IMG/VR virus record: IMGVR_UViG_3300032892_000071
Span: 1-53,337 of that record
Reading direction: 5' to 3' (one strand)
DNA: 53,337 bases
Source: a virus
Each line of letters starts with the position of its first letter. Within the stretch, counting starts at the first letter, position 1. This document shows, piece after piece, positions 18,698 to 50,383 of the stretch. A program made the translations under genes and the position numbers. The notes under the pieces were generated by a model. That model was not told the DNA's origin and made no database searches. It saw only the letters and a list, made by a program, of their open reading frames with translations.

Positions 18698-21301
18698 GTG
18701 GCCGCGACATTGACCGCCGAGCAGGAACTCACGTACGCCTCGTTTCCCATCGAAAAGGTTGAGCACACCGCCGACGGCGACCTGCTGGTCTTCGGCAAAG
18801 CCACCGACGGCACCGTCGACTCGGACGAGCAGATCGTCGACCCCGCCTGGTCACAAAAGGCCCTCGCCGACTGGCTGGAGACCGGCGGGAACGTCCGCGT
18901 CCAGCACCAGGCGCAGCGCGACCCGGCCGGGAAAGGCGTCGGAGTCGAGTTCACCCCTGACGGGCATTTCGTCAAGGCCCTCATCGTGGAACCGGTCGCG
19001 AAACGCCTCGTCGAGAAAGGCGTCCTCCGCGCCTACAGCGTGGGCATCTCCCGCCCGGTGATCGAGCGGGACGTCACCGGCAAGGCCAGAGGCGGCCTCA
19101 TCAAGGGCGGAGTCCTGTCCGAGCTGTCCCTGGTGGACAGGCCCGCGAACGGGAACTGCAGCTTCCAGCTGGTCAAGTCCGCCGATGACGGCACCGCCGA
19201 GTTCACCGGCAAGGTGTACGGCGCGGACGGCTTCCTCGCTAAGGCCGCCGCGGATGAGCGGATCACGTCGACGGTGTCGTTCTCCCCGGCGGACATGGCG
19301 AAGCTGCTGACGTTGCGCGCGGAGCTGGAGAAGACCAGCAGCAACGGCAAGCCAGGCGACGGCGACGATGACGGCGATGACGGCGAGCCGGACAGCGATG
19401 ACAGCGACGGCGGAGCCGGCGGCAAGGACGACACCGCCGGTGATGAAAGCGACGTCGAGGCCGACGTCGATGACGCCGACGACGACAGCAAAACCGCCGA
19501 ACCAGACACTGTGAAAGGCGACCTGTCCGCCAAGGACCGCGACGCCCTCCCCGCCTCAAGCTTCGCCTACATCGACTCCCAAGGCGGGAAGCACCTCCCC
19601 GTCCACGACGAAGGGCACGTCCGTTCCGCGCTCGGCCGGTTCAACCAGACCCAGTTCGAAGGCGGCAAAGCGAAACGGAAAGCCGCGAAGAAAATCCTGT
19701 CCCGGGCCAGGTCGATGGGCATCGACGTGTCCGGTGACTCGGCGGTCGCGCAGGCGGCGAAGAAGACCGCCAAACCCGCCGCAGCGAAGACAGCGGGGGA
19801 GAAGTGCGGCACCTGCAACGGCACCGGGAAAATCATGGACGGGCACCGTAAATGCCCCGACTGCGGCGCCGACGGCACCATCGAGCCCGGCGACGAAGGC
19901 GCGAAGGCCGCGGAAGCCGACGTGGCTAAGGCCGGGTCGAAAGCGTGCACGGGGTGCGGGAAGAACTACCACTCCGACTCCCCGGCGAAGTTCTGCGAAA
20001 GCTGCGGGAAGAAACTCCCCGCCGCCGAGAAAGCCGCCAAACCGACCGTCGATGCCGGCGCGATAGGTGAGCACACCGCTCCGGTGCCTGCGCACCGCGA
20101 ACCCGACGGCGACGAGCAGACCGGCCAGGAGCAGTTCGAGAAAGACGCCGGTATCCCCACCGTCTCAGACGCGCCCCTTGAAGTGAAAGCCGCCCGCCGC
20201 CGCGCCCAGATCGGCGCCGGCACCGGCGAGGCGGTCCTGCATGATCTGCTGTGCCCCGCCTACTCCGCGAAGGTCCTCGGCGACACCTACCCGTGGCTCG
20301 GGGATGTCCGCGACGCCGTCGACATCGGCTACTGGCGGCAGAAGGCTGTCGACTCCGCCGCCGGCGCCCCCCTCGAGGAGGCCAGGGCGGCGGCGGACAT
20401 GTGGCGGCACGCCGAAACGTTGAAAGAGTCCGGCCCCGCCGACCTCGCCGACCTCCACGCCGAGATGCACAAGGCGTTCACCGACGCCAACCCCGGCCCT
20501 GGGCATCCGCTGACGCCCGGCGACATGCAAGCCGGCCGGTACAACCGGCCGCTCATCACCGCCGGCCATGAACGCCCGTCCACCGGCTACACCGTAGGCA
20601 AGCCGGACGTCACGATCCCGTCGGGGACACCGGACGCGTCGCAGTACACCCGCGGGCCCGTCACCGCCGGCCACGAACGGCCCGCCCCCTCCAGCGAACC
20701 CGGCTCCAACAGCAAGGTCCCGCCGCCCGCACCGGCCGGGCAGGTCGGGCGGACATTCTACACCAACGCGTCCCGCGACTCCGCCCGCTCCGCGATGGCC
20801 TCCATGCACGACCACATCGCGCAAACGTTCCCCGACCTGTGCCCCATGTCATCCAAGACCGCCCAGCCGCCGGTGATCGAGGCGGAGCCCGACGTCACCA
20901 AGAACGCTGAGCCAGCCAAGCCCAAGAAAATCAAGAAGGTTAAGGCTTCCGCCGTCACCAAAGCGGCGGTAGAAGGCGCCATCACCGGCCCAGACCTGAC
21001 CAAGCAGATCGGCGATCTGCAAGCAGAGCTCGCCAAATCGCGGCGCGACTACGACGAACTCCGCACCCAGGTCGAAGAGATGGCAGCGGCACCGGACCCG
21101 CGGTACGCCCCCTTCAAAGGCGTCATGTCCGGCTACCCGCCAGCCCGGCAGGCGGAGCCTGCCAGCGCAGTACAAAAAGCAGCCAACGCAGCGCAATCAA
21201 CACTGCTCGACGACCTCAACAAAACATGGCGCTACGACCCGGATCCGGCAGCCCGCGAAAACGCCTACGCGGCGATCCGCAAAATCCTGGGCCTCCCATA
21301 G
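18698..21301 (+). CDS. Prohead protease fused to zinc-ribbon and scaffold-like regions
   Basis: 867 residues from GTG 18698, behind GAGGAGGCGT. Residues 25-155 are an HK97/XkdF-type prohead serine protease: FGKATDGTVDSDEQIVDPAW, VRVQHQ with His70, YSVGISRP with Ser114 and SELSLVDRPAN at 141-151. Residues about 210-275 are an acidic linker. Residues about 285-345 match a DUF6582-like module (KHLPVHDEGHVRSAL). Two zinc ribbons follow at about 368-398 (CGTCNG, CPDCG) and 412-445 (CTGCGKN, CESCGKK). The C-terminal 300 residues are helical with a Lys-rich KPKKIKKVK stretch and a coiled coil, as in scaffolds. It would cleave scaffold and capsid protein during head maturation. It lies directly upstream of the capsid gene. 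Confidence 0.85.
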   Translation: MAATLTAEQELTYASFPIEKVEHTADGDLLVFGKATDGTVDSDEQIVDPAWSQKALADWLETGGNVRVQHQAQRDPAGKGVGVEFTPDGHFVKALIVEPVAKRLVEKGVLRAYSVGISRPVIERDVTGKARGGLIKGGVLSELSLVDRPANGNCSFQLVKSADDGTAEFTGKVYGADGFLAKAAADERITSTVSFSPADMAKLLTLRAELEKTSSNGKPGDGDDDGDDGEPDSDDSDGGAGGKDDTAGDESDVEADVDDADDDSKTAEPDTVKGDLSAKDRDALPASSFAYIDSQGGKHLPVHDEGHVRSALGRFNQTQFEGGKAKRKAAKKILSRARSMGIDVSGDSAVAQAAKKTAKPAAAKTAGEKCGTCNGTGKIMDGHRKCPDCGADGTIEPGDEGAKAAEADVAKAGSKACTGCGKNYHSDSPAKFCESCGKKLPAAEKAAKPTVDAGAIGEHTAPVPAHREPDGDEQTGQEQFEKDAGIPTVSDAPLEVKAARRRAQIGAGTGEAVLHDLLCPAYSAKVLGDTYPWLGDVRDAVDIGYWRQKAVDSAAGAPLEEARAAADMWRHAETLKESGPADLADLHAEMHKAFTDANPGPGHPLTPGDMQAGRYNRPLITAGHERPSTGYTVGKPDVTIPSGTPDASQYTRGPVTAGHERPAPSSEPGSNSKVPPPAPAGQVGRTFYTNASRDSARSAMASMHDHIAQTFPDLCPMSSKTAQPPVIEAEPDVTKNAEPAKPKKIKKVKASAVTKAAVEGAITGPDLTKQIGDLQAELAKSRRDYDELRTQVEEMAAAPDPRYAPFKGVMSGYPPARQAEPASAVQKAANAAQSTLLDDLNKTWRYDPDPAARENAYAAIRKILGLP

Positions 21302-27536: not shown

Positions 27537-27800
27537 ATGACTGATTCGGGTGGGCCGCAGCCTGCGTGGCAGCGGGAACCTGTCGGCCCTGCGTCGGGTT
27601 CCGTGGCCCTGGTGGCGGGGTCGGCGACGGTGTACACGTCGGCGGTGTCGCCTGGTTCAGGGATTCAGCTGACCACGCAGGAGCCAGGTGGTGTGCTCGG
27701 GTCGCATTATGTGGCCGAGACCACGCCAGGGGTGTCGTTTGTTATCGGGTCCACGTCGCCGTCGGATACGTCGACGGTGGCGTGGCAGCTCACCGGCTGA
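27537..27800 (+). CDS. Small beta protein, STVAW family (copy 1)
   Basis: 87 residues. The C-terminal half (SGIQLTTQEPGG ... PGVSFVIGSTSPSDTSTVAW) is homologous to the last 75 residues of the tail spike at 0.1-3.2 kb and to the next gene. A free-standing copy of a fibre domain beside capsid genes suggests a shared attachment or trimerisation unit. It starts 3 bases after the previous stop, and no strong ribosome binding site is seen, so translational coupling is likely. Confidence 0.7.
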   Translation: MTDSGGPQPAWQREPVGPASGSVALVAGSATVYTSAVSPGSGIQLTTQEPGGVLGSHYVAETTPGVSFVIGSTSPSDTSTVAWQLTG

Positions 27801-27816
27801 GGGAAGGGGCCTGATC

Positions 27817-28119
27817 GTGGCGTACAACTGCACCGGCCTCGGGGCGATGAATTTCGCTGTCGCTGAGGGCGGCACCAGCGACTACCAGGGCCTCGCGGTC
27901 CTGGGCACTGTCCCGGCAGCTGGCCAGGTGACCGTTGCTACTGATGCGGCGCTGGAAGACAATATCCGGATTTTTCTCACGGTCCAGTCGGCTGGCACGG
28001 GCACTGTCGGCGCGCTGTACGTGTCGACGGTCGATAACAGCGCCGGGACGTTCACGATCGCCTCGACGTCTACGACAGACGTGAGCACGGTCGCTTGGCT
28101 GATCACAGGGAGCTGCTGA
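27817..28119 (+). CDS. Small beta protein, STVAW family (copy 2)
   Basis: 100 residues from GTG 27817, behind GAAGGGGCC. The central and C-terminal parts (NIRIFLTVQSAGTG, GTFTIASTSTTDVSTVAWLI) match the 27537 protein and the tail spike C-terminus. The in-frame extension upstream is the shadow of the previous gene. It is probably a virion surface subunit; function is not shown. Confidence 0.75.
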   Translation: MAYNCTGLGAMNFAVAEGGTSDYQGLAVLGTVPAAGQVTVATDAALEDNIRIFLTVQSAGTGTVGALYVSTVDNSAGTFTIASTSTTDVSTVAWLITGSC

Positions 28120-34940: not shown

Positions 34941-35327
34941 ATGAATGTCGCGCTGCCGTCCGGCTGCAAAGCCGAACTGCGGGACCAGATCCTCGCCGGG
35001 GACAAACGCGCCGCCAACGCCGCCATCGAAGTCCACATGGACGCCGACGGCGGCCGTGTCGTGTCCGTGTCCATGACCGACAACGTCAAATACGCGCTCC
35101 TGACCCGGCTGATCGTGTCCTGGGACATCGGCCAGCCCGTACCCAGCCAGGTCGTCGACCCGGTCGGGCTGCTCGACTCGCTGCCCCTCGACGACCTTGA
35201 GGCGCTCGACGAGGCGGTGGACCCCCTCTACCGGCGGATCATGGGCATCAAAGACGGCAAGGATGACGGCCCAAAACCGAAGGCGAAGAAAGTCATCTCC
35301 GGCAGCGCTTCACCGACTACTTCCTAG
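34941..35327 (+). CDS. Tail assembly chaperone, short form (G-like)
   Basis: 128 residues from ATG, with GAGGAG upstream. The fold is helical after a short beta start (IEVHMDADGGRVVSVSMTDN, YALLTRLIVSWDIGQPVP), and the C-terminus is acidic then Lys-rich. As in lambda G, it would bind the tape measure protein during tail assembly. Most ribosomes end at TAG 35325-35327; a fraction should shift at 35270-35276 to make the longer protein. Confidence 0.85.
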   Translation: MNVALPSGCKAELRDQILAGDKRAANAAIEVHMDADGGRVVSVSMTDNVKYALLTRLIVSWDIGQPVPSQVVDPVGLLDSLPLDDLEALDEAVDPLYRRIMGIKDGKDDGPKPKAKKVISGSASPTTS

Positions 35328-35569
35328 GCCGGCCCGGCGCTCCGCGCCCGTGTGAGCCGCATCTCATCGACTGGTTCCTGGGGGCGCAAAGGTTCCACTG
35401 GACGCCGGAGCAGTGCGATGCGCTGCCGCTGGAGTTCGCGGAGCTGCTGCCGGCGATGGCAGCCGGGTGGGACACCGCGGTCGAACGGGCGTCGCGGCAT
35501 CATCAACGGCCGACGGAGATGGCCCCGGACCCGGGCAGGCCGAGGTTCACCGGCGGCATGGCAGGCTGA
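34941..35569 (+). CDS. Tail assembly chaperone, frameshifted long form (G-T-like)
   Basis: The -1 frame entered at CCCAAAA (35270-35276) is open to TGA 35567-35569, giving about 209 residues. The extension after the slip reads TEGEESHLRQRFTDYFLGRP, then PHLIDWFLGAQRFHWTPEQ and FAELLPAMAAGWDTAVERAS, a sensible helical T domain. It has no start codon or ribosome binding site of its own that fits, so it should be made only by frameshifting. The long form recruits tail tube subunits to the tape measure in lambda. Confidence 0.85.
35270..35276 (+). promoter_or_regulatory. Programmed -1 frameshift slippery site CCCAAAA
   Basis: In the zero frame the site reads C CCA AAA, exactly the X XXY YYZ rule. 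Both tRNAs can re-pair after a one-base backward slip (CCC AAA). It lies 17 codons before the zero-frame stop, and the -1 frame stays open for about 97 more codons. Confidence 0.9.
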
Positions 35570-35580
35570 ACGGGAGGCGT

Positions 35581-35997
35581 GTGGCTGGCGATCTGTCCGA
35601 CGTGGTGGTCAACCTGCAAGCCCTCGAAGGCCGCGGCCCCGCCGTGGCGGTAGCCGCCGCGACCGCGATGGGTGCGCTGATGGTCGCCGAAACGATGAAC
35701 ACCCTGTCGTCGACGTCGTCGTCTCCGTCGGAGCCGGGGACACCGCCCGCGATCGTCACCGGGCAGTTGCGGCGCAGCGTGAAAGCGGAACCGGCGGAGG
35801 TGAGCGGCACGTCGGCGTCGGTGACGGTCGGCGCGACGACCGTGTACGCGCGGATTCAGGAACTCGGCGGGGACGCCGGGGTCGACCACTCCGCGCATCT
35901 GCCGCCGCGGCCGTACCTGGCGCCGACGATTGAGCGGATCCGGCCCGCCTTGCATGACGTCGCGGTCGCCGCCGCGGCGGCGGTGCTGGGCGCCTAG
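35581..35997 (+). CDS. HK97 gp10-like tail completion protein
   Basis: 138 residues from GTG, behind CGGGAGGCGT. The pattern (LQALEGRGPAVAVAAATAMG helix, then IVTGQLRRSVKAEPAE, VTVGATTVYARIQELGG and PPRPYLAPTIERI near the end) is that of gp10/minor tail Z-type completion proteins, where the LPPRPYL segment is conserved. It lies after the chaperone instead of among the connectors, a small change from the usual order. Confidence 0.8.
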   Translation: MAGDLSDVVVNLQALEGRGPAVAVAAATAMGALMVAETMNTLSSTSSSPSEPGTPPAIVTGQLRRSVKAEPAEVSGTSASVTVGATTVYARIQELGGDAGVDHSAHLPPRPYLAPTIERIRPALHDVAVAAAAAVLGA

Positions 35998-36002
35998 CCG
36001 CC

Positions 36003-39000
36003 ATGGCTGGCGACACGCAGCTCCCGCCAGCCGTCCAGACGTTCATCGCTGACACGGAGGAGTGGATCGCCGGGATCGAGGAGGCGGTCGAATCCACCCA
36101 GGAGTTGGTCGACGCCGCGGCGGAGATCACGGGCGCCGCGGATGAGATGTCCGCTTCGATGGGGGAGTCGGCGGGGGCCGTCGCCGAGGCGACGGAAGGG
36201 ATGGGCGCTGCGGCGGACGCCGCCGCAGCGCAGGTCACGGCCGCCACGGATGACATAACCGGGGCGACGGAACGGATGGGCGCGGCCGCGGACACGGCGG
36301 CCGGGCAGGTCACCACGGCGTCCGAGCAGGTCTCGGCGAGCGCGGATGCGATGGCGGCCGCCACCGATTCGGCTGCGGCCGGGGTCGAGGGCGCCTACGA
36401 GAAGATCGGCACGGCGGCGGAGACCGGCGCCGCGGGTCTCGGCGCCGCCGACACGAAAGTCACCGAGGGTGCCGAGGCGATGGTCACGTCGGTTAACTCG
36501 GCTGCGGCCGGGGTTGAGGGCGCCTACGAGCGGATCGGCACGGCGGCGGAGACCGGTGCCGCCGGTCTCGGCGCCGCCGACACGAAAGTCACCGCCGGCG
36601 CGGAGGAGATGGTCTCCGCCACGAACACCGCCGCCGCGGGGGTCGAGGCAGGGTACGCGAAGATGGGGACCGCCGCAGAGGAAGGCGCGGCGGGGATGGC
36701 TTCCGCGGACGCGAAGGTGACCGCGGGCGCGGCCGAGTCCGCCGAGGCGGTCGAAGCGGGCGCGGCGAAACAGTCAGCCGCGGTGGAGGAAAGCGCCGCC
36801 AAGTCTGACACCGCCGGTGAGGCAGCGGTCGGGCTCGGGTCGAAGATGAAAACCGCCGCCCTGGGTCTCGGTGTCGCCGCAGCCGCGTCGGTGAAGATGG
36901 CGTCGGATTTCCAGGAGATGGGCACCCAGCTGGTCACGGGCGCCGGTGAGACCGACAAGAACCTGCAGATGGTGCAGAACGGGATCCTGCAGCTGTCGGT
37001 GTCGACAGGCACGTCGGTGAAGCAGCTTGAGGCCGGCATGTACATGATCGAGTCGGCGGGGGATCACGGCGCGCAGGGCCTCGACGTGCTGAAGGCCGCG
37101 GCGGAGGGCGCGAAAACCGGCAACGCGGACCTGGGGTCGGTCGCGAACGCGGTCACGAGCGCGCTGAACGCCTACCACGAGCCCGCGTCGGCGGCGGCCG
37201 CGGTGACGTCTGAGCTGGTGGAGACGGTCGCGTCGGGTAAGACGCACATGGATGACCTGGCGAAGTCGCTGGGTTCGGTGCTGCCGGTCGCGGCGTCGGC
37301 GCATATTTCGCTGGCGCAGGTCGGCGGGGCGATGGCGACGATGACGGACCAGGGTGTCACGGCGCGGCGGGCGGCGCAGAACCTCGCGAACATGATCCGG
37401 TCGCTGGAGTCGCCGAGCACGGCGGCGGCGGCGGAGATGCAGTCCCTCGGCCTGAACGCGAACACGGTCAGCACCCACCTGGGGTCTGAGGGCCTGACCG
37501 GGACGATGAACGAGCTGACCGAGGCGATCCTGAAGAACACCAAGGGCGGCATGGTCCTGGTCGGGGACATGAACGCCATGACCCCCGCGTCGAAAAGCCT
37601 GGCCGAGGGGATCCTGGCGGGGAAGGTCTCCACCAATGACCTGACGACCGCGGTGAAGGGGCTGACGCCGCAGCAGGCCGCGCTGGTGACATCGTTCGCT
37701 AAGACCGCGTCCGGCGCGACCGGGCTGAAGCAGACGTTCGACGGGGCGATGAAGACGATGACCGGCGGGGCGACCGGGCTGAACGTGGCGCTGGAGCTTG
37801 GCGGTAAGCAGGCGGGCGTGTTCCAGGGCAACGTGAAGGCGATCGGCGGGGCGGCGGCAACAGCCGGCGGCAGCGTGCAGGGGTTCGCTAAGACGCAGCA
37901 GGATTTCAATTTCAAGCTGGAGCAGGCGAAGAACGCGGCCGAGGCGGTGTCGTACTCCCTCGGTGACGCGCTGCTGCCGGCGGCGACGAAGGTGATGGGG
38001 GTCATCGCCGACTTCGGCGGGTGGCTGGCGAAGAACCAGGCTGCGGCGGTCGCGCTGGCCGCGGTCATCGGCGGCACCCTGTCGGTCATCATCGGCGGCA
38101 AAATGATCTCCAGTATCAAGGATGCCGTCGACGCGTTCAAAATGCTCGCTGACAGCGAACTTGTCCAGGCCGCGGCGTCCAAGGTGGCGGCGGCTGCGCA
38201 GTGGCTGCTGGACGCGGCGATGGACGCGAACCCGATCGGGCTGGTTGTTATCGCGATCGCGGCGCTGGTCGCCGGAATCATCTACGCCTACACGCACTTC
38301 AAAACGTTCCGCGACGCGATCAACGACGTCGGCAGGGCGATCGCGACGGTGTTCGACTGGGTTAAATCGCACTGGCAGCTGATCCTCGGCATCCTGACCG
38401 GCCCGATCGGCGCCGCCGTGATCTTCATAGTCGCGCACTGGAAGCAGATCCAGGCCGACGCGGCGGCGGCGTGGAACGCGATCGTCGCGTTCCTCAAGGG
38501 CGTCTGGACCACGATCACGTCAGATATTTCAACCGCGTGGAACGCGATCGTCACCTGGTTCAAAACCCTGTGGAACGGCTGGGTCACGTTCGTCAACACG
38601 ACCTTGAACACGATCAAGACGGACCTGAGCAACGCCTGGACCGCGATCACGTCCGCAGTCCAGACCGCGTGGAACGCGATCGTCACCTGGTTCAAAACCC
38701 TGTGGAACGGCTGGGTCACGTTCGTCAACACGACGCTCACCACTATCGAGAACGCGCTGAAGGCCGCCTGGACGGCGGTCACGACAGCGATCCAGACCGC
38801 ATGGAACGCGATCACCGCCTGGTTCAAGACATGGTGGACGACCCTGACGGCAGCGTTCACCGCCGCCTACACGCTGATCGAGAACAACCTGAAGCAGGCG
38901 TGGACCGATGTCGCCACAGCCGCGACAAACGCATGGAACACGATCAAGACTGATATTGAGAACATCGTCAAGACGATCGCCACCGACATGGTGACCCTCG

Positions 39001-39524
39001 GGAAAAACATCGTCACCGGGCTGATCAACGGGATCACGTCGATGGTCTCCACCCTGACCAGCACCATGACCAGCCTCGGGTCGTCCGCCCTCAGCGCCCT
39101 GAAATCCGCGATCGGGTCACTGTCCCCGTCGGTGCGGTTCCACGAGGAAGGCCGGAACATCGTCCTCGGCCTGATCGGCGGCATCGGCGCGATCAAGCCC
39201 CAGGTGATCAACGCGATGCGTTACCTCGCGCTGGACATGGGCAACGCGTTCCGCGGCGGCTACAGCTTCGGCGGCGGCGGGTTCGGGCAGGGCGGCTGGG
39301 GGCAAGGCGGCGGGGGCGGCGGCTGGGGGCAGGGCGGCTGGGGCGGCGGCTGGGGATGGGGCGCGGCACCCGTCCCCGGCGGCGCCGCGCAAGGCGTCAC
39401 CATCAACGTCCAAGGCTCCGTCCTCGCCGAGAAAGAACTCCAGCAGATCATGCAGCAAGGGGTTCTGCGGTACACCCGCCGTAACCAGGGCAACGGGCTG
39501 TTCCTCGCCGGACGGCAGTCCTAG
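36003..39524 (+). CDS. Tape measure protein
   Basis: 1173 residues. Residues 1-290 are Ala/Glu-rich coiled coil with three 43-residue tandem repeats. Residues about 300-560 carry the phage tail tape measure domain (FQEMGTQLVTGAGETDKNLQ, QLEAGMYMIESAGDHGAQGL, MATMTDQGVTARRAAQNLAN). Three hydrophobic segments follow at about 680-810 (ALAAVIGGTLSVIIGG, GLVVIAIAALVAGIIYAY, LTGPIGAAVIFIVAHW). Next come repeated Trp-rich units (WNAIVTWFKTLWNGWVTFVN). The end is Gly/Trp-rich. By the usual 0.15 nm per residue the tail would be about 175 nm long (inference). Hydrophobic parts probably reach into the host membrane during DNA entry. Confidence 0.9.
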   Translation: MAGDTQLPPAVQTFIADTEEWIAGIEEAVESTQELVDAAAEITGAADEMSASMGESAGAVAEATEGMGAAADAAAAQVTAATDDITGATERMGAAADTAAGQVTTASEQVSASADAMAAATDSAAAGVEGAYEKIGTAAETGAAGLGAADTKVTEGAEAMVTSVNSAAAGVEGAYERIGTAAETGAAGLGAADTKVTAGAEEMVSATNTAAAGVEAGYAKMGTAAEEGAAGMASADAKVTAGAAESAEAVEAGAAKQSAAVEESAAKSDTAGEAAVGLGSKMKTAALGLGVAAAASVKMASDFQEMGTQLVTGAGETDKNLQMVQNGILQLSVSTGTSVKQLEAGMYMIESAGDHGAQGLDVLKAAAEGAKTGNADLGSVANAVTSALNAYHEPASAAAAVTSELVETVASGKTHMDDLAKSLGSVLPVAASAHISLAQVGGAMATMTDQGVTARRAAQNLANMIRSLESPSTAAAAEMQSLGLNANTVSTHLGSEGLTGTMNELTEAILKNTKGGMVLVGDMNAMTPASKSLAEGILAGKVSTNDLTTAVKGLTPQQAALVTSFAKTASGATGLKQTFDGAMKTMTGGATGLNVALELGGKQAGVFQGNVKAIGGAAATAGGSVQGFAKTQQDFNFKLEQAKNAAEAVSYSLGDALLPAATKVMGVIADFGGWLAKNQAAAVALAAVIGGTLSVIIGGKMISSIKDAVDAFKMLADSELVQAAASKVAAAAQWLLDAAMDANPIGLVVIAIAALVAGIIYAYTHFKTFRDAINDVGRAIATVFDWVKSHWQLILGILTGPIGAAVIFIVAHWKQIQADAAAAWNAIVAFLKGVWTTITSDISTAWNAIVTWFKTLWNGWVTFVNTTLNTIKTDLSNAWTAITSAVQTAWNAIVTWFKTLWNGWVTFVNTTLTTIENALKAAWTAVTTAIQTAWNAITAWFKTWWTTLTAAFTAAYTLIENNLKQAWTDVATAATNAWNTIKTDIENIVKTIATDMVTLGKNIVTGLINGITSMVSTLTSTMTSLGSSALSALKSAIGSLSPSVRFHEEGRNIVLGLIGGIGAIKPQVINAMRYLALDMGNAFRGGYSFGGGGFGQGGWGQGGGGGGWGQGGWGGGWGWGAAPVPGGAAQGVTINVQGSVLAEKELQQIMQQGVLRYTRRNQGNGLFLAGRQS
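36366..36760 (+). repeat. Tandem 43-codon repeats in the tape measure gene
   Basis: Three successive units share VEGAYEKIGTAAETGAAGLG and variants. The first two are nearly identical in DNA over about 110 bp (offset 129 bp); the third is more diverged. Unequal recombination here would change tail length in 6-7 nm steps. Confidence 0.8.
38532..38734 (+). repeat. 71-bp exact direct repeat in the tape measure gene
   Basis: 38532-38602 and 38664-38734 are identical over 71 bp, offset by 132 bp (44 codons). They code for AWNAIVTWFKTLWNGWVTFV and its flanks. Further diverged copies of the same 44-residue unit lie on both sides. Confidence 0.9.
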
Positions 39525-39527
39525 GCG

Positions 39528-42500
39528 ATGTCGGTCACCACCGCGTTCGCGCTGCGCCGCAACTACACCGGCAGCGTCTACGGCGGCACCCCCACATGGC
39601 TGCAGTTCCAGGTCCCCACCATGCGGGTCCGCGACCGCCCCCGCCCCCGGGCCCTGCTCGGGAACAACCTGGCCTGCGGCGACGGGATCACCGGGCCAGC
39701 CAACACCGCCAGCCCCGCCGTGCAGGCGGTGAACACCTGGACATCGACGTTCGTCCCGCAAGGCGCGACCCCGAACGCCTACACCACCACCGTCACCCCC
39801 AGCACCGCCTGCCAGAACATCACCGTCGCCAACTCCGACGGGAACTGGCTCATCGCCTACCTGGCGTGGGACTCCGCGAACTTCGCCGCCCAGCCCATGT
39901 CCCCCTCCGTCGGCGACGACGCGCATAACCTGTGGGAACCGCTCGGCACCGCACTCACCACATCCCTGTGCTCGGTCACCATCTGGGCCGCCCCCGCAGC
40001 CCGCCCCGCGCAGACGGTGTACGTGTCAGCGAACGCGGCGACCACCGTCCGCGCCGCCGTCATCCAGGAGTTCACCGGCCTCGCAGCCGGGCTCGCCGTC
40101 ACCGGATACCAGTCGGCGGCCGTGTCCGGCACCGCCCAGGCCGCCGCCACCGCCGCCCTCCCCGCACCGCCGGCGGCGGCGCTGGTGCTGACCTGCGGCG
40201 CGTACGACAACGCCGCCTACTCCACCACCGCGGTCCTCACCGGCGGCGGGTGGAACACCCCCGTCAATCTGCCGTCGCAGAACACCGGCTACGGCTACGA
40301 CCTGATCCTGGGCACCTCCTGGCAGGTCACCACCGGCGCCGCCACCGCCAGGTGGCAGCCAGCCGCCGCCGGGAACGGCACAAGCCTCGACGTCACCGCC
40401 GTCACCGCCGGGGTCCTCACCGCCCAGCCGCCACCCGCGCAACTGTCCGCGAACTGGCCGCTGATCCAGCTGCAGGCCGCGCTAGGCACCGCCGGCGGCG
40501 GCCCAGCCGGGCAGAACACACCCCCCGACCAGAGGATCTGGGCCGACATCTCCGGCCGGCTGCTGTCATGGGACGAGACCCGCGGCGCCCAGTACGAGCT
40601 CGACCAGATCCAGGCCGCGCAGGTCAACGCGCAGCTCGACAACCACGACGGGGCGCTCACCCCCCGCCCCCCGTGGGCGATCACCGCCACCGGTAACTCC
40701 GCGAACGCGACCACGATCACCGTGTCCGTCCCGGACGCGGCGCAGGTCACCGTCTCCGACTGGTTCCAGATCTACCCCACGTCGCAGACCTACCCGTACA
40801 GCGGCGCCGGGACCCCGCAGGCGGCGGTGTTCCAGGTCACCGCAGTCAACACGGCCACCGGGCTCGTCACCTTCACCCCCGCAGCCGCGTCGCCGCCGGT
40901 GACCGGGAACGTGGCGCAGTCCGGGTCGCTGGCCCCGGTGCCGCTCGGGCAGGTCACCTCATACGTCCCCGTCCGGCTCCTGCACACCTGGAACGGCCGC
41001 ACGTCGGTCAGCTTCGGCGGGTACTCCGAACGGTGGCCGCAGGACTGGAACCCCGACTCGTGGTGGCAGCAGTCCCACGCGATATTCACCGACGTCTGGT
41101 CCCTGATCAACGGGCAGATGCGGACCATCGGGCAGGCTGAGATCCTCAACGACGGGCCGGTCGCGTACTGGCCCCTCGGCGATGACAACGGCACCGCCGC
41201 CGCGCCGACCCTCGCCGCGGCGAACATCGCCGCCACCAGCTACGGGCAGCTCATCGTCCGGCAGTCCAAATACGGCACCGGCGGCGCCACCTACTCGTTC
41301 GGGTCGTCCTCCGGCACCGGGGCCCCATCCGGGTCGAACACGTGGCGGCAGCAAGGGCTGGCCGCGACCGAAACCAGCCAGGGTTACACCCTGTTCTTCC
41401 AGCCCGCCTCCCCGTACCAGCCGCTGCCGCTGACCATCACCGGCTGGTTCGAGGTCGACGCGGCGGCGCCGTCCGGGCCGGTGCTGATGTCGGTGAAGTC
41501 GTTCGCCGGGCCGATCGCGCAGGTCTCCATCGCCGCGGAAACCGGCTACCTGACGTTCTCCTGGTGGGACAGGTTCTCCGGGCAGCAGTTCGAGATCACC
41601 GTGAACGCCTCCCAGAACTGGGGCAACGGCACCTGGTTCATGGTCACCATGCAGCTGACCCAGTCCAGCTGGGACGTCATCATCAACGGCGGCCTCGACC
41701 TCGGCCTGAACGGCATCGCGGACCTGCCCCCGTACTGGGGGTGGGTGTCCTTCTGCGGGCAGGCCGACGCGAACTACAGCGGCTACATGTACAACGGCGG
41801 CGTCGCCCACTGCGCCCTGTTCAACTACCTCGTGTCGCCGCTGCGGGTCCTGACCGAGTACCTGGCGACCGCGGGGGCGCTCGCCGAAACCCCAGGCGTC
41901 AACGTGTCCGGCGACACCTGCGGCCGGCGCATCGAGCGGCTGCTCGAGGCCGGCGGCTACACCGGCCCGAAATGCGTCGACGTGACCTCCACGACGGACA
42001 ACCCGAACCTGACCGTCCCCGCGACCGACACCTCCGGGCAGCAGGCGTCCGCAGCGGTGCAGGCCGTCTCCGAATCCGACGGCGGGGTCCTGTTCATCGC
42101 CGGCGACGGGAACCTGTTCTACCGCTCCGCCGCCGCGAACTACTGCCGCCCAGCCGCCTGGACCCTCGGCGAGCTCACCTCCGCCGGGGAGATCCCCTAC
42201 CTGCCCGACGCGTCGCTCGATTTCGACCCGACGCACATCGCGAACGACATCTCCCTGCAGCAGCTCGGCGGGCCGGTCATCACGCCCGGGTCGGCGCTGT
42301 CCCCGTTCATCGCCGCGTCGAAGGCCCAGTTCGGTGACATCACCTACACCCCGACGGTCTACCTGGCGGACACCCAGAAGGTCACCGACCTGGCGAACTG
42401 GGTCGCGCAGACGCAGGGCGCCCCGGCGATGCGGGTCTACCAGGTCACCGTAGACGCGGCGAAAACAGTCGCCGCGTGGCCGATGGTGCTGCACGCCGAC

Positions 42501-42716
42501 ATCGGCGACGTCGTCATCTTCCACCGCCGGAACCCGAACATGGGACCACCCGTGATCACCCTCACGACGATCATCATTAAGTTGCAGCGGTCCCTGACCT
42601 GGTCGTCCGGCACCGGCACCCTGAAACTGGTGCTGTCGCCCTACTACGCTGCGGCGCTGTCGACGAACTCCGCCACCTACGGGTACCCGAACGGCACGGT
42701 GAGGCTGGCGCGATGA
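39528..42716 (+). CDS. Large minor tail protein (Dit/Tal-like) with LamG-like domain
   Basis: 1062 residues. The N-terminus (PTMRVRDRPRPRALLGNNLA) carries one Pro/Arg repeat unit. Residues about 65-300 are the shared beta-sandwich module (NWLIAYLAWDSANFAAQPM, SVTIWAAPAARPAQTVYVSA). Residues about 335-390 (RIWADISGRLLSWDETRGAQ, ELDQIQAAQVNAQLDNHDGA) match the start of siphovirus tail-tip proteins. Residues about 530-770 look like a LamG/concanavalin domain (NDGPVAYWPLGDDNGTAA, GTWFMVTMQLTQSSWDVIIN). The rest resembles the tail-tip hub. It is likely a baseplate protein that binds host glycans. Confidence 0.8.
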   Translation: MSVTTAFALRRNYTGSVYGGTPTWLQFQVPTMRVRDRPRPRALLGNNLACGDGITGPANTASPAVQAVNTWTSTFVPQGATPNAYTTTVTPSTACQNITVANSDGNWLIAYLAWDSANFAAQPMSPSVGDDAHNLWEPLGTALTTSLCSVTIWAAPAARPAQTVYVSANAATTVRAAVIQEFTGLAAGLAVTGYQSAAVSGTAQAAATAALPAPPAAALVLTCGAYDNAAYSTTAVLTGGGWNTPVNLPSQNTGYGYDLILGTSWQVTTGAATARWQPAAAGNGTSLDVTAVTAGVLTAQPPPAQLSANWPLIQLQAALGTAGGGPAGQNTPPDQRIWADISGRLLSWDETRGAQYELDQIQAAQVNAQLDNHDGALTPRPPWAITATGNSANATTITVSVPDAAQVTVSDWFQIYPTSQTYPYSGAGTPQAAVFQVTAVNTATGLVTFTPAAASPPVTGNVAQSGSLAPVPLGQVTSYVPVRLLHTWNGRTSVSFGGYSERWPQDWNPDSWWQQSHAIFTDVWSLINGQMRTIGQAEILNDGPVAYWPLGDDNGTAAAPTLAAANIAATSYGQLIVRQSKYGTGGATYSFGSSSGTGAPSGSNTWRQQGLAATETSQGYTLFFQPASPYQPLPLTITGWFEVDAAAPSGPVLMSVKSFAGPIAQVSIAAETGYLTFSWWDRFSGQQFEITVNASQNWGNGTWFMVTMQLTQSSWDVIINGGLDLGLNGIADLPPYWGWVSFCGQADANYSGYMYNGGVAHCALFNYLVSPLRVLTEYLATAGALAETPGVNVSGDTCGRRIERLLEAGGYTGPKCVDVTSTTDNPNLTVPATDTSGQQASAAVQAVSESDGGVLFIAGDGNLFYRSAAANYCRPAAWTLGELTSAGEIPYLPDASLDFDPTHIANDISLQQLGGPVITPGSALSPFIAASKAQFGDITYTPTVYLADTQKVTDLANWVAQTQGAPAMRVYQVTVDAAKTVAAWPMVLHADIGDVVIFHRRNPNMGPPVITLTTIIIKLQRSLTWSSGTGTLKLVLSPYYAAALSTNSATYGYPNGTVRLAR

Positions 42717-44647
42717 CCGAGACGACGTCGCTCGGCGCGGTGCCGGTGGAGATCGAGGTCACCTGCACCCAGACCGGCGGGATCGCGGTCCGGACCGGGA
42801 TGCTGATGCGGGTCCTGGTCCTCGACAACTGCGCCTCCTACACCGATCAGGCGGACGCCGCCGTCGCGTCGGTGTCCGGGCGGACCACCGCGACGCAGGA
42901 CTTCTGCCAGGGGTACATCACCCCCACCGAGGCCGGGTCCGTCGTCTACGGCGCCGCGTTCGGGTACCGCAACGGCTCGTTCTCGGTCGACTCCGCCTCC
43001 ACGGAGATCGACAACGTGGCTGACACGGTCAACCTTTGCCAGTACCTGACCGCGCAGTCGTCGGCACCGACGGTGTCCCCCCCGGCGCAGATCATTTTCG
43101 GCTGGTCGACGTCGCCGTCGGAGACCGGCGGGATCGCGATGTGCGAGATCCTGCCGGCCACGGACGTGTTCACCGGGAACCCGATGACGATCACCGTGGA
43201 CGCGTCGTCGCCGGATGTGGCGACGTCGACCACGTCGATCGACGTCACCACCGTGTCGTTCTCCCCGCCGCCGGGATCTTTGCTGGTCGCGCTCGTGTCG
43301 GCGGACTCCTCCACCGGGACCAACTCGAACACCGTCTCGGTCACGTCGAACGTTGTGGGCGTGAACGCGGCGACGACGACCGCGCCGATCTGGTCTCAGG
43401 CTGTGTTCGGGAACACCCCGGGCTGCGGCTACGTCGGGGTGTGGGTGTCGTACATCCCGGTCGGCGCGGTGCCGATCGCGGCCGGCACCTACCCTGGGCC
43501 GCCGGACGGGATGCACACCTGGAGCCTCACCACACCTGAAGTGATCACGGTGGCGATTTTGCGGAACGACATCACCGCCGCCGCGTGGTGGCTGTCCGCG
43601 CCGCCTTTGTACTCCGGGCAGCAGGCGGTCTACCCCCAGGAAATCAGTTCCGGCAACGACCAGGTGATCTATCTTGACACCACCGTCAACGACCCGCTGA
43701 ACGAAGGCTCCGAAGCGGACGGGGCCGGGGTGTTCGGCGCCTACTCCGGCTGGTACCTGGCGTTCGGGATGGTGTCATTCGACGCCGCGTCCGCCAGCAA
43801 AGACTTCGCAGCCGGGATCGGCGCGCAGCAGTTCGGGAACATCACCGTCGTCCACGGCCAGACATGCCCGTCGAACCCGGGCTACATCACGCTGCTGATC
43901 ACCTGTGACATGCAGCCGCTGAACACCTACGCGTCCGACAACATGGCGCTGTGGGGCTACCAGGACGCCGGGTCCGTGTTCACATACGTGTACGGCCTGT
44001 CCACCAGCCAGCTGTACGGGCCGCAGAACAGTCTCGCGCCGACGTTCAACATGCTGTACGCGGCGCGCATGAGCCCCCCCGCGGGCTGGGCGTCGTCGCT
44101 GCCCGTCCCCGCCGGGACAGCGTTCTCGGACACGACGCAGATCACCGGCGCGTTCATGAACGCCGCGATCCGGGACACCGTCAACTTCCTCCAGTACCCG
44201 CCGGTGTGCCGCCTGCAGCTCACTTCCACGATCCAGATCGCGTCGGCAGTGTTCCCCGCCGGCACCGCGGTCACGTTCTCCACGGCGCAGATCCTCGGGC
44301 GCAACTCCGACACCTACGGCGGCTGGAACGGCGCGACCCGGTACACCTTCCCGGCCGCGGGGCTTTATTACGTGTACGGGCAGGTCGCGTTCCTCAACAA
44401 CACCACCGGAACCGACCGTGCCTGCGGGCTGCGGGTGTCCGCGGGCACGACCCAGTGGGGGTCGACGGAGGCGTCGGCGAACGACTCCACCGGCCACGTG
44501 TCCGTCGCGGTGCAGATGATCCGCGCCACCGCGGGCCAGTACGTGGAGCTGATCGGCTACAGCAACGCGACGACCACGGGGGGGATCAGCATCGGCGGCA
44601 ACGGCGAATCAAACACCACCATGATCATAATGTGGGTTGCGAAATGA
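42713..44647 (+). CDS. Minor tail protein with C1q-like C-terminal domain
   Basis: 644 residues. ATG overlaps the previous TGA (ATGA), so translation is coupled. Most of the protein is beta-sandwich repeats (PPPGSLLVALVSADS; TWSLTTPEVITVAILRNDIT). The last 135 residues resemble C1q/TNF-like jelly rolls of phage tail tips: RYTFPAAGLYYVYGQVAFLN, then YVELIGYSNATT and a final MIIMWVAK strand. It is probably trimeric and receptor-facing. Confidence 0.75.
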   Translation: MTETTSLGAVPVEIEVTCTQTGGIAVRTGMLMRVLVLDNCASYTDQADAAVASVSGRTTATQDFCQGYITPTEAGSVVYGAAFGYRNGSFSVDSASTEIDNVADTVNLCQYLTAQSSAPTVSPPAQIIFGWSTSPSETGGIAMCEILPATDVFTGNPMTITVDASSPDVATSTTSIDVTTVSFSPPPGSLLVALVSADSSTGTNSNTVSVTSNVVGVNAATTTAPIWSQAVFGNTPGCGYVGVWVSYIPVGAVPIAAGTYPGPPDGMHTWSLTTPEVITVAILRNDITAAAWWLSAPPLYSGQQAVYPQEISSGNDQVIYLDTTVNDPLNEGSEADGAGVFGAYSGWYLAFGMVSFDAASASKDFAAGIGAQQFGNITVVHGQTCPSNPGYITLLITCDMQPLNTYASDNMALWGYQDAGSVFTYVYGLSTSQLYGPQNSLAPTFNMLYAARMSPPAGWASSLPVPAGTAFSDTTQITGAFMNAAIRDTVNFLQYPPVCRLQLTSTIQIASAVFPAGTAVTFSTAQILGRNSDTYGGWNGATRYTFPAAGLYYVYGQVAFLNNTTGTDRACGLRVSAGTTQWGSTEASANDSTGHVSVAVQMIRATAGQYVELIGYSNATTTGGISIGGNGESNTTMIIMWVAK

Positions 44648-44661
44648 GCGGGGGCTGACTG

Positions 44662-45333
44662 GTGCCGCCGGCCATGAGAACCATCATCCGGGAGAAACGG
44701 GCCAACATCTCCTACGCCACCTCCGTCAACTGGTGCGGCTACGTGGAGACAGTCAACGCGCCCTACACCAGCGTGTCCGCGACGTGGACGCAGCCGACGA
44801 CGTCGGGTAGCTCATCGAGCTCGGCGGCCGCGTTCTGGGTCGGGTTCGACGGCTGGGCCGGCAGCGGCATGGGGGCGGTCGAGCAGTGCGGCACCCAGGC
44901 CGCCGGAGCCGGCGGCACCGGCGTCTGGTACGAGCTGTACCCCACCGGCGAGGTCGACTACTCCACGTCCGCGTACCCGCTCGCCGCCGGGGACGTCATC
45001 ACCGCCGGCGTCTCGTTCAACGGCACCTACCTCGACCTGGCGCTCACCGACACGACGAAGGGGTGGACGTACACGGTGCAGAAAGGGATCCGGGCCGCAG
45101 AGATCGAGCAAGGCTCCGACTTTATCGGCTTCTCCTCCGCCGAGATCATCGTCGAGGACTACCTCCTCGGGCATCTGTACGACTTCGGCACGGTCACCTT
45201 CACCGGCATCACCCCCACCATGACCGCCCCGATCGCCGTCACCTGCGTCAACGCCACCAGCTCCGACATCGAAATGTCACCCGGCAGCCTGTCGAACGGC
45301 TCGTTCACCGTCACCTGGCTCGCCTCCAGCTGA
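44662..45333 (+). CDS. Glutamic (G1/eqolisin-type) peptidase homologue in the tail module
   Basis: 223 residues from GTG; ATG 44674 is also possible. The sequence follows the peptidase G1 pattern: SVNWCGYVETVNAPYTSVSA, AAFWVGFDGWAGSG, VEQCGTQ with the expected catalytic Gln75, WYELYP, LAAGDVITAGVSFNG and FIGFSSAEIIVEDY with the expected catalytic Glu161, then DFGTVTFTGI. There is no signal peptide, unlike fungal and bacterial secreted members, so it is probably built into the virion. It might cleave a host surface protein or mature a tail protein. Family assignment is from motif memory; activity is inferred. Confidence 0.75.
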   Translation: MPPAMRTIIREKRANISYATSVNWCGYVETVNAPYTSVSATWTQPTTSGSSSSSAAAFWVGFDGWAGSGMGAVEQCGTQAAGAGGTGVWYELYPTGEVDYSTSAYPLAAGDVITAGVSFNGTYLDLALTDTTKGWTYTVQKGIRAAEIEQGSDFIGFSSAEIIVEDYLLGHLYDFGTVTFTGITPTMTAPIAVTCVNATSSDIEMSPGSLSNGSFTVTWLASS

Positions 45334-46589
45334 TGACGTTCCTCGGCTCCAGCGTCCAGACCTCCGGGGCGGCCGCCACCACCAACTACCTGATCATCTA
45401 CCCGCCGCCGTACGAGCCCGGCAACATCCTTATCATGGCCGCGATCGGCGGCGGCTCATCCACCGGCAGCATCTACGCAAGCCCCCCGATCCAGTGGACG
45501 GCCCTGTCCGCGTCCGACGCAGTCCTGGGAGTCTTCTACAAGGTCGCGCAGCCGATCGAGACGGCCTACTACCTGCCGTTCTCCGGGCAGTGCATGGCCG
45601 CCGCCGTCATCGTCGCATACCCCGCCTCGACGATCCCGTCGAGCCTGTTCGCGTCCAGTTCCGCCGGGGTCGTCACCTACACGCCTGCCCTTCCGGCGGG
45701 GGTCACGGCAACCGAAACCGTCGTCATGATCACCGCGAATCAGGTGTCATCGAAGTCCCCGATCGACAGCGGCGTCTACCAGGCCGCCGAAAACATCGGC
45801 CTCCCCGGCGGGTGGGCGGAACGGGTCCCCGCGTTCGGGTCCGGCATCGGCGGCGGCTCCGGCCTCACCGACTACGCCGTCAACGCCGGCGTCTCCGACT
45901 GCCTCGGCACCCCCCCAGCCGCGACCGTCACCTCCGCCGCCACCTCCGACTTCTTCACCGGCTTCGTCGTCTTGTCCCCCACCGGCGTCCCCCCGCCACC
46001 GCCGCCTGCCCCGGCGACAGTCGTCCCCCCGCCCGCCGGCGGCCCGCAGTTCACCGCCGGGTCCACCCCGCACGGCACCGCCGGGCTGGGCGACCAGTAC
46101 GCCAACCTCACCTACCTCATCTCCGGATCGTTCAGCTTCCTCGCCTCCAAGGCGGTGTTCCGCGGCACCCAGTCCGTCTCCTCCCAGTCGCTGTCCGCAT
46201 CAGTCGTGTCGAACCCGATCACCCTCGACACAGTGCTCGAGGACCCGTACGGGGGGTGGACGGGGTCGCCGTGGTACTACTGGATGCCGCCGCAGGGCGT
46301 GTCCGGCTGGTTCCTGTGCACCGGGAACGTGTTCACCGCCGCGCCGGCGACAGCGAACGCGGTGAACCCGCTGGTCGCCACCAACGGCGCCGACAACTAC
46401 GCCGGGTCTTTGACGTCGAACCCGTCGGTGTCCCACGGCTGCGGCCGGCCGGTGATCGCGCTGGTGTACCTCCTCGGCGGCGTCAACCTCGTACAGCTGC
46501 AGGCGGTCCTCGCGGGCGGCGCGAACCTCGCCACCTCTATCACAGCAGGCCAGAACAGCCACCTTGAGGTCTGCTGGGTGAGCAGCTGA
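45333..46589 (+). CDS. Minor tail beta protein with Pro-rich linker
   Basis: 418 residues. ATG overlaps the upstream TGA by one base. Residues 1-225 are a beta-sandwich module (NILIMAAIGGGSSTGSI, AVLGVFYKVAQPIETAYYLP) like others here. Residues about 225-245 are a Pro-rich linker (VPPPPPPAPATVVPPP). Residues about 250-418 form a second domain (NLTYLISGSFSFLASKAVFR, GVSGWFLCTGNVFTAAPA). It is the last virion-type gene before the membrane proteins and is likely a tail-tip protein. Confidence 0.7.
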   Translation: MTFLGSSVQTSGAAATTNYLIIYPPPYEPGNILIMAAIGGGSSTGSIYASPPIQWTALSASDAVLGVFYKVAQPIETAYYLPFSGQCMAAAVIVAYPASTIPSSLFASSSAGVVTYTPALPAGVTATETVVMITANQVSSKSPIDSGVYQAAENIGLPGGWAERVPAFGSGIGGGSGLTDYAVNAGVSDCLGTPPAATVTSAATSDFFTGFVVLSPTGVPPPPPPAPATVVPPPAGGPQFTAGSTPHGTAGLGDQYANLTYLISGSFSFLASKAVFRGTQSVSSQSLSASVVSNPITLDTVLEDPYGGWTGSPWYYWMPPQGVSGWFLCTGNVFTAAPATANAVNPLVATNGADNYAGSLTSNPSVSHGCGRPVIALVYLLGGVNLVQLQAVLAGGANLATSITAGQNSHLEVCWVSS

Positions 46590-46975
46590 TGCATGCCCTG
46601 CGGCGAGTCGGCCGCCGCGGCGCCGCGCTGGCGGTCCTCGCCGCCGTCGACGTGTGCTACGGCACCGCGCTCCTCGCCGGCCACACCGCCGCCGCGACAG
46701 CCGCAGTCATGGTGATGCCGCTGCACCTGTGGGGCTGGGTGTGGATCGGCGCCGCCGCGGTCCTGGCGGCCGGTGTGCCTCTAACCGACGACAGGTGGCA
46801 CTACGGGTTCGCGGCGCTGTTCAAAACGTTCTGGGCGCTGCTGATCGCCTGGCACTGGCTGGCGCACCGCGAACACGGCGGCTGGGGCGCCGCGATGGCG
46901 TGGCTCGGCCTCGCCGCGCTGGTCCTGCTTATCTCCGGCTGGCCCGAGCCGCCCCGGCCCGCAGCGCCGCCGTGA
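46589..46975 (+). CDS. Four-helix membrane protein, possible holin
   Basis: 128 residues. ATG overlaps the previous stop by one base. Four hydrophobic helices are visible: LAVLAAVDVCYGTALLAG, VMVMPLHLWGWVWIGAAAVL, LFKTFWALLIAWHWLAH and AMAWLGLAALVLLISGW. The N-terminus is basic. Location between tail and lysin genes and the coupled small membrane proteins downstream suggest holin/antiholin functions, but no family signature is seen. Confidence 0.7.
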   Translation: MHALRRVGRRGAALAVLAAVDVCYGTALLAGHTAAATAAVMVMPLHLWGWVWIGAAAVLAAGVPLTDDRWHYGFAALFKTFWALLIAWHWLAHREHGGWGAAMAWLGLAALVLLISGWPEPPRPAAPP

Positions 46976-47277
46976 CGGCCGGGCCCGGATGGGACAGCGT
47001 CATCATCGGCCTCGCGTCCCTGTCCATCGCCGGCCTCGCCTACACCTCGTCGGGCCGCGCCCGCACCGCCGGGGCCCGCACCGGCCACACGGCCGTCGAA
47101 GCGCAGGCGTGGGACCGCGCCCGCCTCGTCTACGAGAACGCGCTCCGCCAGCAGGAACACCAGATCGCCGCGCTGAACGAGAAAGTTGCCGCGCTGGAGG
47201 CCCGGACCGGGATGCTGGAGACGGTGATCCGCGATGCGGGCCTGCCCGTCCCCCCCAGCCCGGGCCAGGCCGGTTAG
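46972..47277 (+). CDS. Small membrane-anchored coiled-coil protein
   Basis: 101 residues from GTG 46972, overlapping the upstream TGA (GTGA). One hydrophobic segment (SVIIGLASLSIAGLAYTS) is followed by a basic stretch and a coiled coil (RQQEHQIAALNEKVAALEAR). This layout is seen in spanin-like or holin-regulating proteins and in minor phage membrane proteins. Function unknown. Confidence 0.7.
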   Translation: MTAGPGWDSVIIGLASLSIAGLAYTSSGRARTAGARTGHTAVEAQAWDRARLVYENALRQQEHQIAALNEKVAALEARTGMLETVIRDAGLPVPPSPGQAG

Positions 47278-49406: not shown

Positions 49407-49474
49407 ACCTGCGGTTTTAAAGTTTCCGGCAGTTTTCTGCAATTCGGCGCCCTCAAATGTTAGGGAAGTTGCAC

Positions 49475-50383
49475 ATGGTCGAGTTCCGGTCCGGATGGCT
49501 CCCGTCCGACCCGCGTGTCCCACGCGCCCACTTCGGCTGGCACCTCACCGGCGCCGCGCCCCCTGCCAGCGCAGGCTGGTACAGCGCGGTCCCAGCCTGG
49601 GGGATGCTGCTCAACGACCAGCTTGGTGACTGCGTCGGCGCCGGGATCGGCCACACCGTCGACGCGTACTCCTACTACGGGCAGGGCACCGAGGACACCG
49701 TCACCGACGCGCAGGTCCTCGCCCAGTACGAGCGGGTCGGCGGCTACGTCCCCGGGAACCCGAACAGCGACCAGGGTGAGGACATCCAGTCCGCGCTGGC
49801 CGACTGGACCGCGAACCCGATGGCCGGCGTCGAAATCCAGGCGTACGCGCAGGCTGCCGTGGACGACACCGAAGAGATCCAAACCGCCGTCGCCGAGCTC
49901 GGCGCCGTGCTGATCGGGGTGAACTTCCCGAACTCGGCGATGACCCAGTTCAACGACGGGCAGCCGTGGACGGTGGTCGCCTACGACGGCGGCATCGCCG
50001 GCGGGCACTGCGTGCCGCTGCTCGGCTACGACGCCACGAGCCTGTACTGCGTCACCTGGGGCAAGGTGCAGGCCATGACATACGGCTGGTACGCGAAGTA
50101 CTGCGAGGAGGCGTGGGTTCCAGTTTCGAGCGAGTGGGTGTCTGCGACCTCGGGTAATGACCCGGCGGGGGTGGACCTGGCGGGCCTGGGCGCGGAGTAT
50201 GCGGCGGTCACGGGGGGCGTCAACCCGTTCCCGGGCCCAGCGCCCACCCCGACCCCGACTCCTACGCCGACCCCGACTCCTACGCCTACGCCGTCCCCGG
50301 CGGAGATCTGCACCGAGATCGCAGCCTCGTTCACGTCACTCGCTAACTGGTTCGCCAGCCAGCCCCCCGCCAGCCTGCGCTAG
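49475..50383 (+). CDS. Papain-like cysteine peptidase, second lysin
   Basis: 302 residues from ATG 49475, which has AGGGAAG 6 bases upstream; ATG 49457 would add six residues. The C1-like peptidase core has LLNDQLGDCVGAGIGH with Cys53, GGHCVPLLGYDATSLYCVTWG with His178, and a following Trp/Gln region. Residues about 250-272 are a Pro-Thr repeat linker, and the last 30 residues are a short helix. It would cut peptide cross-links or a host protein during lysis. It is the last gene on the plus strand before the terminator. Confidence 0.75.
   Translation: MVEFRSGWLPSDPRVPRAHFGWHLTGAAPPASAGWYSAVPAWGMLLNDQLGDCVGAGIGHTVDAYSYYGQGTEDTVTDAQVLAQYERVGGYVPGNPNSDQGEDIQSALADWTANPMAGVEIQAYAQAAVDDTEEIQTAVAELGAVLIGVNFPNSAMTQFNDGQPWTVVAYDGGIAGGHCVPLLGYDATSLYCVTWGKVQAMTYGWYAKYCEEAWVPVSSEWVSATSGNDPAGVDLAGLGAEYAAVTGGVNPFPGPAPTPTPTPTPTPTPTPTPSPAEICTEIAASFTSLANWFASQPPASLR

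Follow-up and report, generated by a model that had tools for sequence, protein, structure and literature searches.

A peptidase family G1 (eqolisin) homologue encoded among the tail genes of a phage contig

Introduction

Why would a phage carry, among its tail genes, a relative of a rare family of acid peptidases that cells secrete? According to a 2018 description, members of the eqolisin family occur in archaea, bacteria and fungi (PMC6154417). The characterised G1 enzymes, including the bacterial pepG1 with activity at pH 2-5, function under acid conditions (PMC3009609). A first-pass annotation of a 53,337-base linear IMG/VR virus contig, the whole of which we refer to as the window, had assigned the gene at 44662-45333 to this family. 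It proposed that the product was either a virion-borne protease or a catalytically idle fold reused in the tail. Our search, which covered open-access literature, found no phage G1 or Peptidase A4 enzyme. The combination of glutamic peptidase and bacteriophage returned no phage enzyme by title or abstract, and the papers naming PF01828 were fungal.

A complete member of family G1

The gene under study is:

44662..45333, + strand: G1 (eqolisin) peptidase gene, 223 aa, without signal peptide

Translation may start at GTG 44662 (223 aa) or at ATG 44674 (219 aa), and the stop codon ends at 45333. The family profile search that the first-pass annotation had suggested placed the protein well above the cut-off of PF01828 (Peptidase_A4), with an E value of 2e-22 and 80.1 bits against a cut-off of 22.3. 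The match covered residues 23-206, corresponding to profile positions 2-187 of 206. A PF01828 scan of the whole record gave the same match, and none was found in the control genomes (0/14). NCBIfam models did not match the protein, and a direct phmmer search with it against the PDB found nothing. When the PDB was searched with a profile built from 32 relatives, the window protein included, the sole hits were scytalidoglutamic peptidase (5e-26) and aspergilloglutamic peptidase (1e-26).

We also modelled the protein with AlphaFold (AF2) on the alignment of relatives (pLDDT 87.1, pTM 0.86). The predicted structure is a two-sheet beta-sandwich of the scytalidoglutamic peptidase type. Its five top PDB matches were all G1 structures (2ifw, 2ifr, 1s2b, 3trs and 1y43), led by scytalidoglutamic peptidase 2ifw with an E value of 4.7e-13 and TM scores of 0.73/0.79. 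Two Bacillus proteins (8xai; yncM, 4hfs) followed, and then generic lectin-like sandwiches; a fold search of BFVD retrieved generic sandwiches only, at a TM score of about 0.4. Pfam, the PDB profile match and the predicted fold thus bear out the proposed homology, and it is near certain that the product of 44662-45333 is a complete eqolisin (peptidase family G1, Pfam Peptidase_A4).

Conservation of the active site

The codons of the proposed active-site residues are:

44848..44850, + strand: Asp63, aligned with Asp43 of scytalidoglutamic peptidase
44884..44886, + strand: Gln75 (CAG), aligned with catalytic Gln53 of scytalidoglutamic peptidase
45142..45144, + strand: Glu161 (GAG), aligned with catalytic Glu136 of scytalidoglutamic peptidase

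In scytalidoglutamic peptidase Q53, E136, D43 and four conserved glycines are treated as important (PMC6154417). The PDB profile aligned Q75 and E161 with the catalytic Gln and Glu of both scytalido- and aspergilloglutamic peptidase, in agreement with the catalytic pair named in the first-pass annotation. Glycines G8, G41, G44 and G55 of scytalidoglutamic peptidase, together with Asp43, correspond to G26, G61, G64, G77 and D63 in the window protein, which also retains the WYE motif. Residues W24, G26, W59, V60, G61, G64, Q75, G77, P94 and G110 were invariant in alignments of 32 and 34 sequences, and D63, W89, E91, S159, E161 and E165 were invariant or nearly so. The dyad is kept among the relatives, those from phages included. 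Neither of the outcomes that the first-pass annotation had named as counter-evidence, a different fold or relatives lacking both catalytic residues, was observed.

Judged from these alignments, every testable active-site feature is retained in the window copy. Sequence does not separate a virion-borne protease from an idle fold, but an active enzyme is favoured because this copy has kept the dyad and Asp63 as well as the WYE motif and the glycines. The protein shares its fold, dyad, Asp43, four glycines and WYE with scytalidoglutamic (1s2b/2ifw) and aspergilloglutamic peptidase (1y43/3trs) of MEROPS G1. Those enzymes are fungal, made as precursors and secreted, and are about 24% identical to the window copy, whereas the latter has neither signal nor pro-segment and lies in a phage tail operon. 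The bacterial members of the family, namely the characterised Alicyclobacillus enzyme pepG1 (PMC3009609) and the uncharacterised copies that Actinomycetota secrete, differ from the window copy in having signal peptides and residing in cellular genomes.

The gene lies in a tail module

The neighbouring genes are:

36003..39524, + strand: tape measure protein, 1173 aa (phrog_1272, E = 1.4e-66, and many other tape measure families)
39528..42716, + strand: putative tail protein, 1062 aa, after the tape measure gene (function by position; phrog_5313, unknown function, E = 3.3e-23)
42713..44647, + strand: putative tail-tip or receptor-binding protein, 644 aa, directly upstream of the G1 gene
45333..46589, + strand: putative tail protein, 418 aa (function by position only)
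46589..46975, + strand: 128-aa protein (phrog_4026 'minor tail protein', E = 3e-8)

With a tape measure gene upstream, a minor tail family two genes downstream and tight packing of the genes, the tail operon setting that had been proposed was upheld. The protein encoded at 42713-44647 has a weak TNF/C1q-like C-terminus (E = 0.015, below cut-off) and a match to phrog_15750 (E = 0.0019). Because the last base of the G1 stop is also the first of the 45333-46589 gene, and because the G+C content of the G1 gene (0.674) and its third-position G+C (0.942) are both like those of the neighbours, the gene is not an assembly join. Its codon-usage correlation is somewhat lower (0.82 vs 0.91-0.98), which may reflect a short gene or import. 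The gene does not sit beside portal, scaffold or capsid genes, as would befit a prohead protease acting in the cytoplasm; a weak head-maturation-protease match was located elsewhere in the window (18698-21301).

A search of the window for terminase family PF03354 gave no match, and the 53,337-base contig may be a fragment. We retrieved no relatives of the G1 protein from INPHARED by tblastn at E <= 1, from PHROGs or from a single-sequence scan of IMG/VR. INPHARED also contained no relatives of four further window proteins tested or of the DNA at 35000-47000, and the phage is therefore new to that database. A search for the 1062-aa tail protein in 21 actinobacterial genomes, the majority of them with G1 genes, was run with no positive control and did not find it. 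The host is probably among soil actinobacteria.

Secreted actinobacterial relatives and the missing export signal

A two-sequence profile scan of 84,980 species genomes identified 45 loci, mostly in Actinomycetota, and many came from peat and other soils according to their record titles. G1 genes were present in 30 of 343 genomes from the family of a Streptosporangiaceae MAG, in 24 of 294 from the order of an Actinospica strain and in 30 of 298 from the order of an Acidimicrobiaceae MAG (often several per genome). In the tree the window copy fell on a long branch among secreted actinobacterial enzymes, with weak support (83/86), and these are its nearest relatives at up to 44% identity.

Secretion as a pre-proenzyme is the usual trait of G1 enzymes, though not required for the family, and the window copy departs from it. 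Its domain match begins at about residue 12, and the 11 residues before it, which include no hydrophobic stretch, are too few for a signal peptide, as the first-pass annotation had noted. By a simple hydropathy rule (not SignalP), 85 of 93 G1 domains had a hydrophobic stretch upstream; the remainder were the window copy and copies that were broken or cut by a contig end. Five candidate signal-less relatives (L006, L012, L045, L046 and L064) were rejected as broken or cut in this way.

Two further loci were set aside. L126, a secreted G1 of the cell type, shares its contig with an integrase and genes of cellular appearance, and is probably host flank. L004 (3-797) appeared to be a fusion, with a signal-peptided N-terminal G1 half in frame with a structural-protein-like C-terminal half; its G+C drops sharply at the join, from about 0.59 to 0.42, and it is a possible assembly chimera. 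Separately, Actinomycetota genomes carry up to eight G1 genes each (G209, G015, G016, G375, G916 and others). Many of these G1-rich organisms are uncultured and from soil, and the family expansion in them is little studied.

A possible role at the tail tip

Phages carry virion-associated depolymerases and tail lysins, enzymes on or near the tail that clear a surface barrier. Known virion-borne phage enzymes mostly cut polysaccharide or peptidoglycan. The window enzyme would differ from tail depolymerases and lysins in cutting protein.

Our best reading, which could equally well prove right or wrong, is that the gene encodes a working G1 endopeptidase in or on the tail tip that acts on host-surface proteins and was captured from secreted actinobacterial enzymes. 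The absence of a signal peptide, the position among tail genes and the acid optimum of known G1 enzymes favour this role, and that optimum suits acid soil and not the cytoplasm. Under this scheme, the gene would have been taken from the secreted enzymes of soil actinobacteria, and the signal peptide and pro-segment would have been lost after capture as needless for a protein carried on the particle. A particle-borne protein needs no signal peptide, which we propose is why the window copy starts at the mature domain. The protein would be built into or attached to the tail tip, where Gln75 and Glu161 would together activate a water molecule under acid conditions, much as the dyad of scytalidoglutamic peptidase does. 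During adsorption it would cut proteins on or around the host surface and so clear a path for the tail. The enzyme's activity, its place in the virion, its substrate and an acid-soil host are all inferred. Against the tail-tip role, known G1 enzymes work at pH 2-5 (PMC3009609), conditions that the habitat of this phage may not offer, and the neighbours were assigned as tail-tip genes mostly by position.

A G1 domain beside fibre-like genes and the alternatives to a tail-tip protease

The best match among 343 Streptosporangiaceae-type genomes (an actinobacterial MAG, 6.25-kb contig) was L065:844-2085, equal to L079:4374-5615. This 413-aa protein begins without a signal peptide, after a GGAGG ribosome-binding site, and has a 215-aa N-terminal domain of unknown family followed by a G1 domain that shares 39% identity with the window protein. 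No similarity was detected between the N-terminal domain and the window proteins; an AAEI..GS.F stretch is common to L065 and the window G1 protein. A nearby gene matches the podophage fibre family Gp80 (E = 1.4e-5, just below cut-off), and neighbours match PHROG virion structural (1.7e-24) and tail spike (7e-20) families via a repeat, perhaps with low specificity. By gene context alone, L065 is tail-associated. A tree uniting it with the window copy in one clade was neither demonstrated nor rejected (AU p = 0.19; long branches).

In L065 the Gln and Glu are retained but the Asp43 site and the WYE-YP motif are gone, which makes drift to an idle domain plausible. We therefore considered whether the window copy is itself a G1 fold that the tail has adopted as a binding or spacer domain without catalysis, one whose concanavalin-A-like sandwich could attach to a surface polymer. 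Generic lectin and tail-spike sandwiches are the next matches in the fold searches, and the long branch of the window copy is consistent with such reuse. However, the window copy retains all active-site residues examined, and we think this explanation rather unlikely.

It is also conceivable that the enzyme is no part of the particle, being made late in the cytoplasm and freed at lysis. There it would digest extracellular protein or host debris that traps progeny, or simply free nutrients. The gene is a late one without a signal, cell lysis would free its product, and the hosts of related enzymes secrete several G1 peptidases. Its location between tail genes and not in a lysis region, and the fibre-like genes adjoining the related L065 fusion, argue against this possibility, which strikes us as distinctly improbable.

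A second phage lineage with a G1 gene in the head module

Profile scans of IMG/VR identified 19 contigs of another phage clade (L050-L059, L111-L125), the longest about 38 kb, with 41-46% G+C and the gene order terminase, portal, G1, scaffold, capsid. The portal gene lies upstream of G1 in 18/19 contigs, the remaining one beginning just before G1, and scaffold lies downstream in all 14 contigs that extend far enough. PHROGs confirmed the portal, capsid and scaffold of L052, whose G1 copy gave an AF2 model with a pLDDT of 77. All G1 proteins of the clade keep a signal-like N-terminus and the dyad. Pairwise dN/dS was 0.07-0.19 where measurable (about 0.1), and the gene is under strong purifying selection. 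Because this clade keeps an intact gene at such a ratio, phages have a use for a G1 enzyme. Head maturation proteases often occupy the portal-scaffold slot, but the protein of this clade has an export signal.

A protease that processes tail proteins inside the cell would fit a gene placed among its likely substrates in the tail operon, and in the other lineage portal and scaffold flank the G1 gene, but characterised G1 enzymes need acid pH (PMC3009609) in contrast to the near-neutral cytoplasm and the 38-kb clade protein carries an export signal, so that we find a morphogenetic role highly doubtful. Because that clade has a signal-peptided copy in its head module, phage G1 genes need not be tail parts.

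The G1 proteins of the 38-kb clade are monophyletic (100/100), with a Planctomycetia copy as nearest neighbour. A single origin of the window copy and this clade was disfavoured (AU p = 0.014; long branches). We tentatively suggest, with slightly less than even confidence, that tailed phages acquired G1 peptidases on two or more occasions. One acquisition would have given rise to a tail-tip protease that lacks a signal and degrades proteins of the host surface, and another to an exported head-module enzyme in the ~38-kb clade. If so, no earlier use of the eqolisin family by phages is known. A tail-tip protease would imply that protein layers of the host obstruct certain phages, which digest them, and with an acid optimum infection would be linked to the pH of the habitat. 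The homologues extend the eqolisin family to phages and provide a small enzyme ready to assay.

Viral glutamic proteases have precedents outside phages. In a 2019 review, Strawberry mottle virus Pro2-Glu is a virus-encoded glutamic protease with a proposed concanavalin-A-like fold, which was then known from no further viral protease, and closterovirus minor coat proteins have a putative Pro2-Glu-related domain in a virion tail protein (PMC6357015). These are proteins of plant RNA viruses, and the review describes Pro2-Glu as differing from eqolisins in sequence, catalytic spacing and sheet arrangement.

Other features of the window

A 1668-aa open frame at 13663-18669 consists of many repeats like 'RPFVFRSPAPARARLGNNLQ.GDG.AS.VVTPLG', and a similar motif, RPRPRALLGNNLACGDG, occurs near the N-terminus of the 39528-42716 protein. 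The tailspike encoded at 91-3180 matches K1-lyase_C; two small proteins (65 and 100 aa) at 27603-28119 resemble its C-terminal part and are apparent stand-alone copies of the tailspike end domain. At 49457-50383 lies the gene of a 308-aa protein that matches phrog_19005, a family of unknown function (E = 1.2e-33), and has a Thr-Pro repeat close to its C-terminus. It also weakly matches a PHROG peptidase family and is possibly a papain-like peptidase. Beside the tailspike genes, 4158-5750 combines glycosyltransferase and methyltransferase domains in one protein, and it is followed (region 4158-7941) by an opposite-strand pair of genes resembling nucleotide-sugar enzymes.
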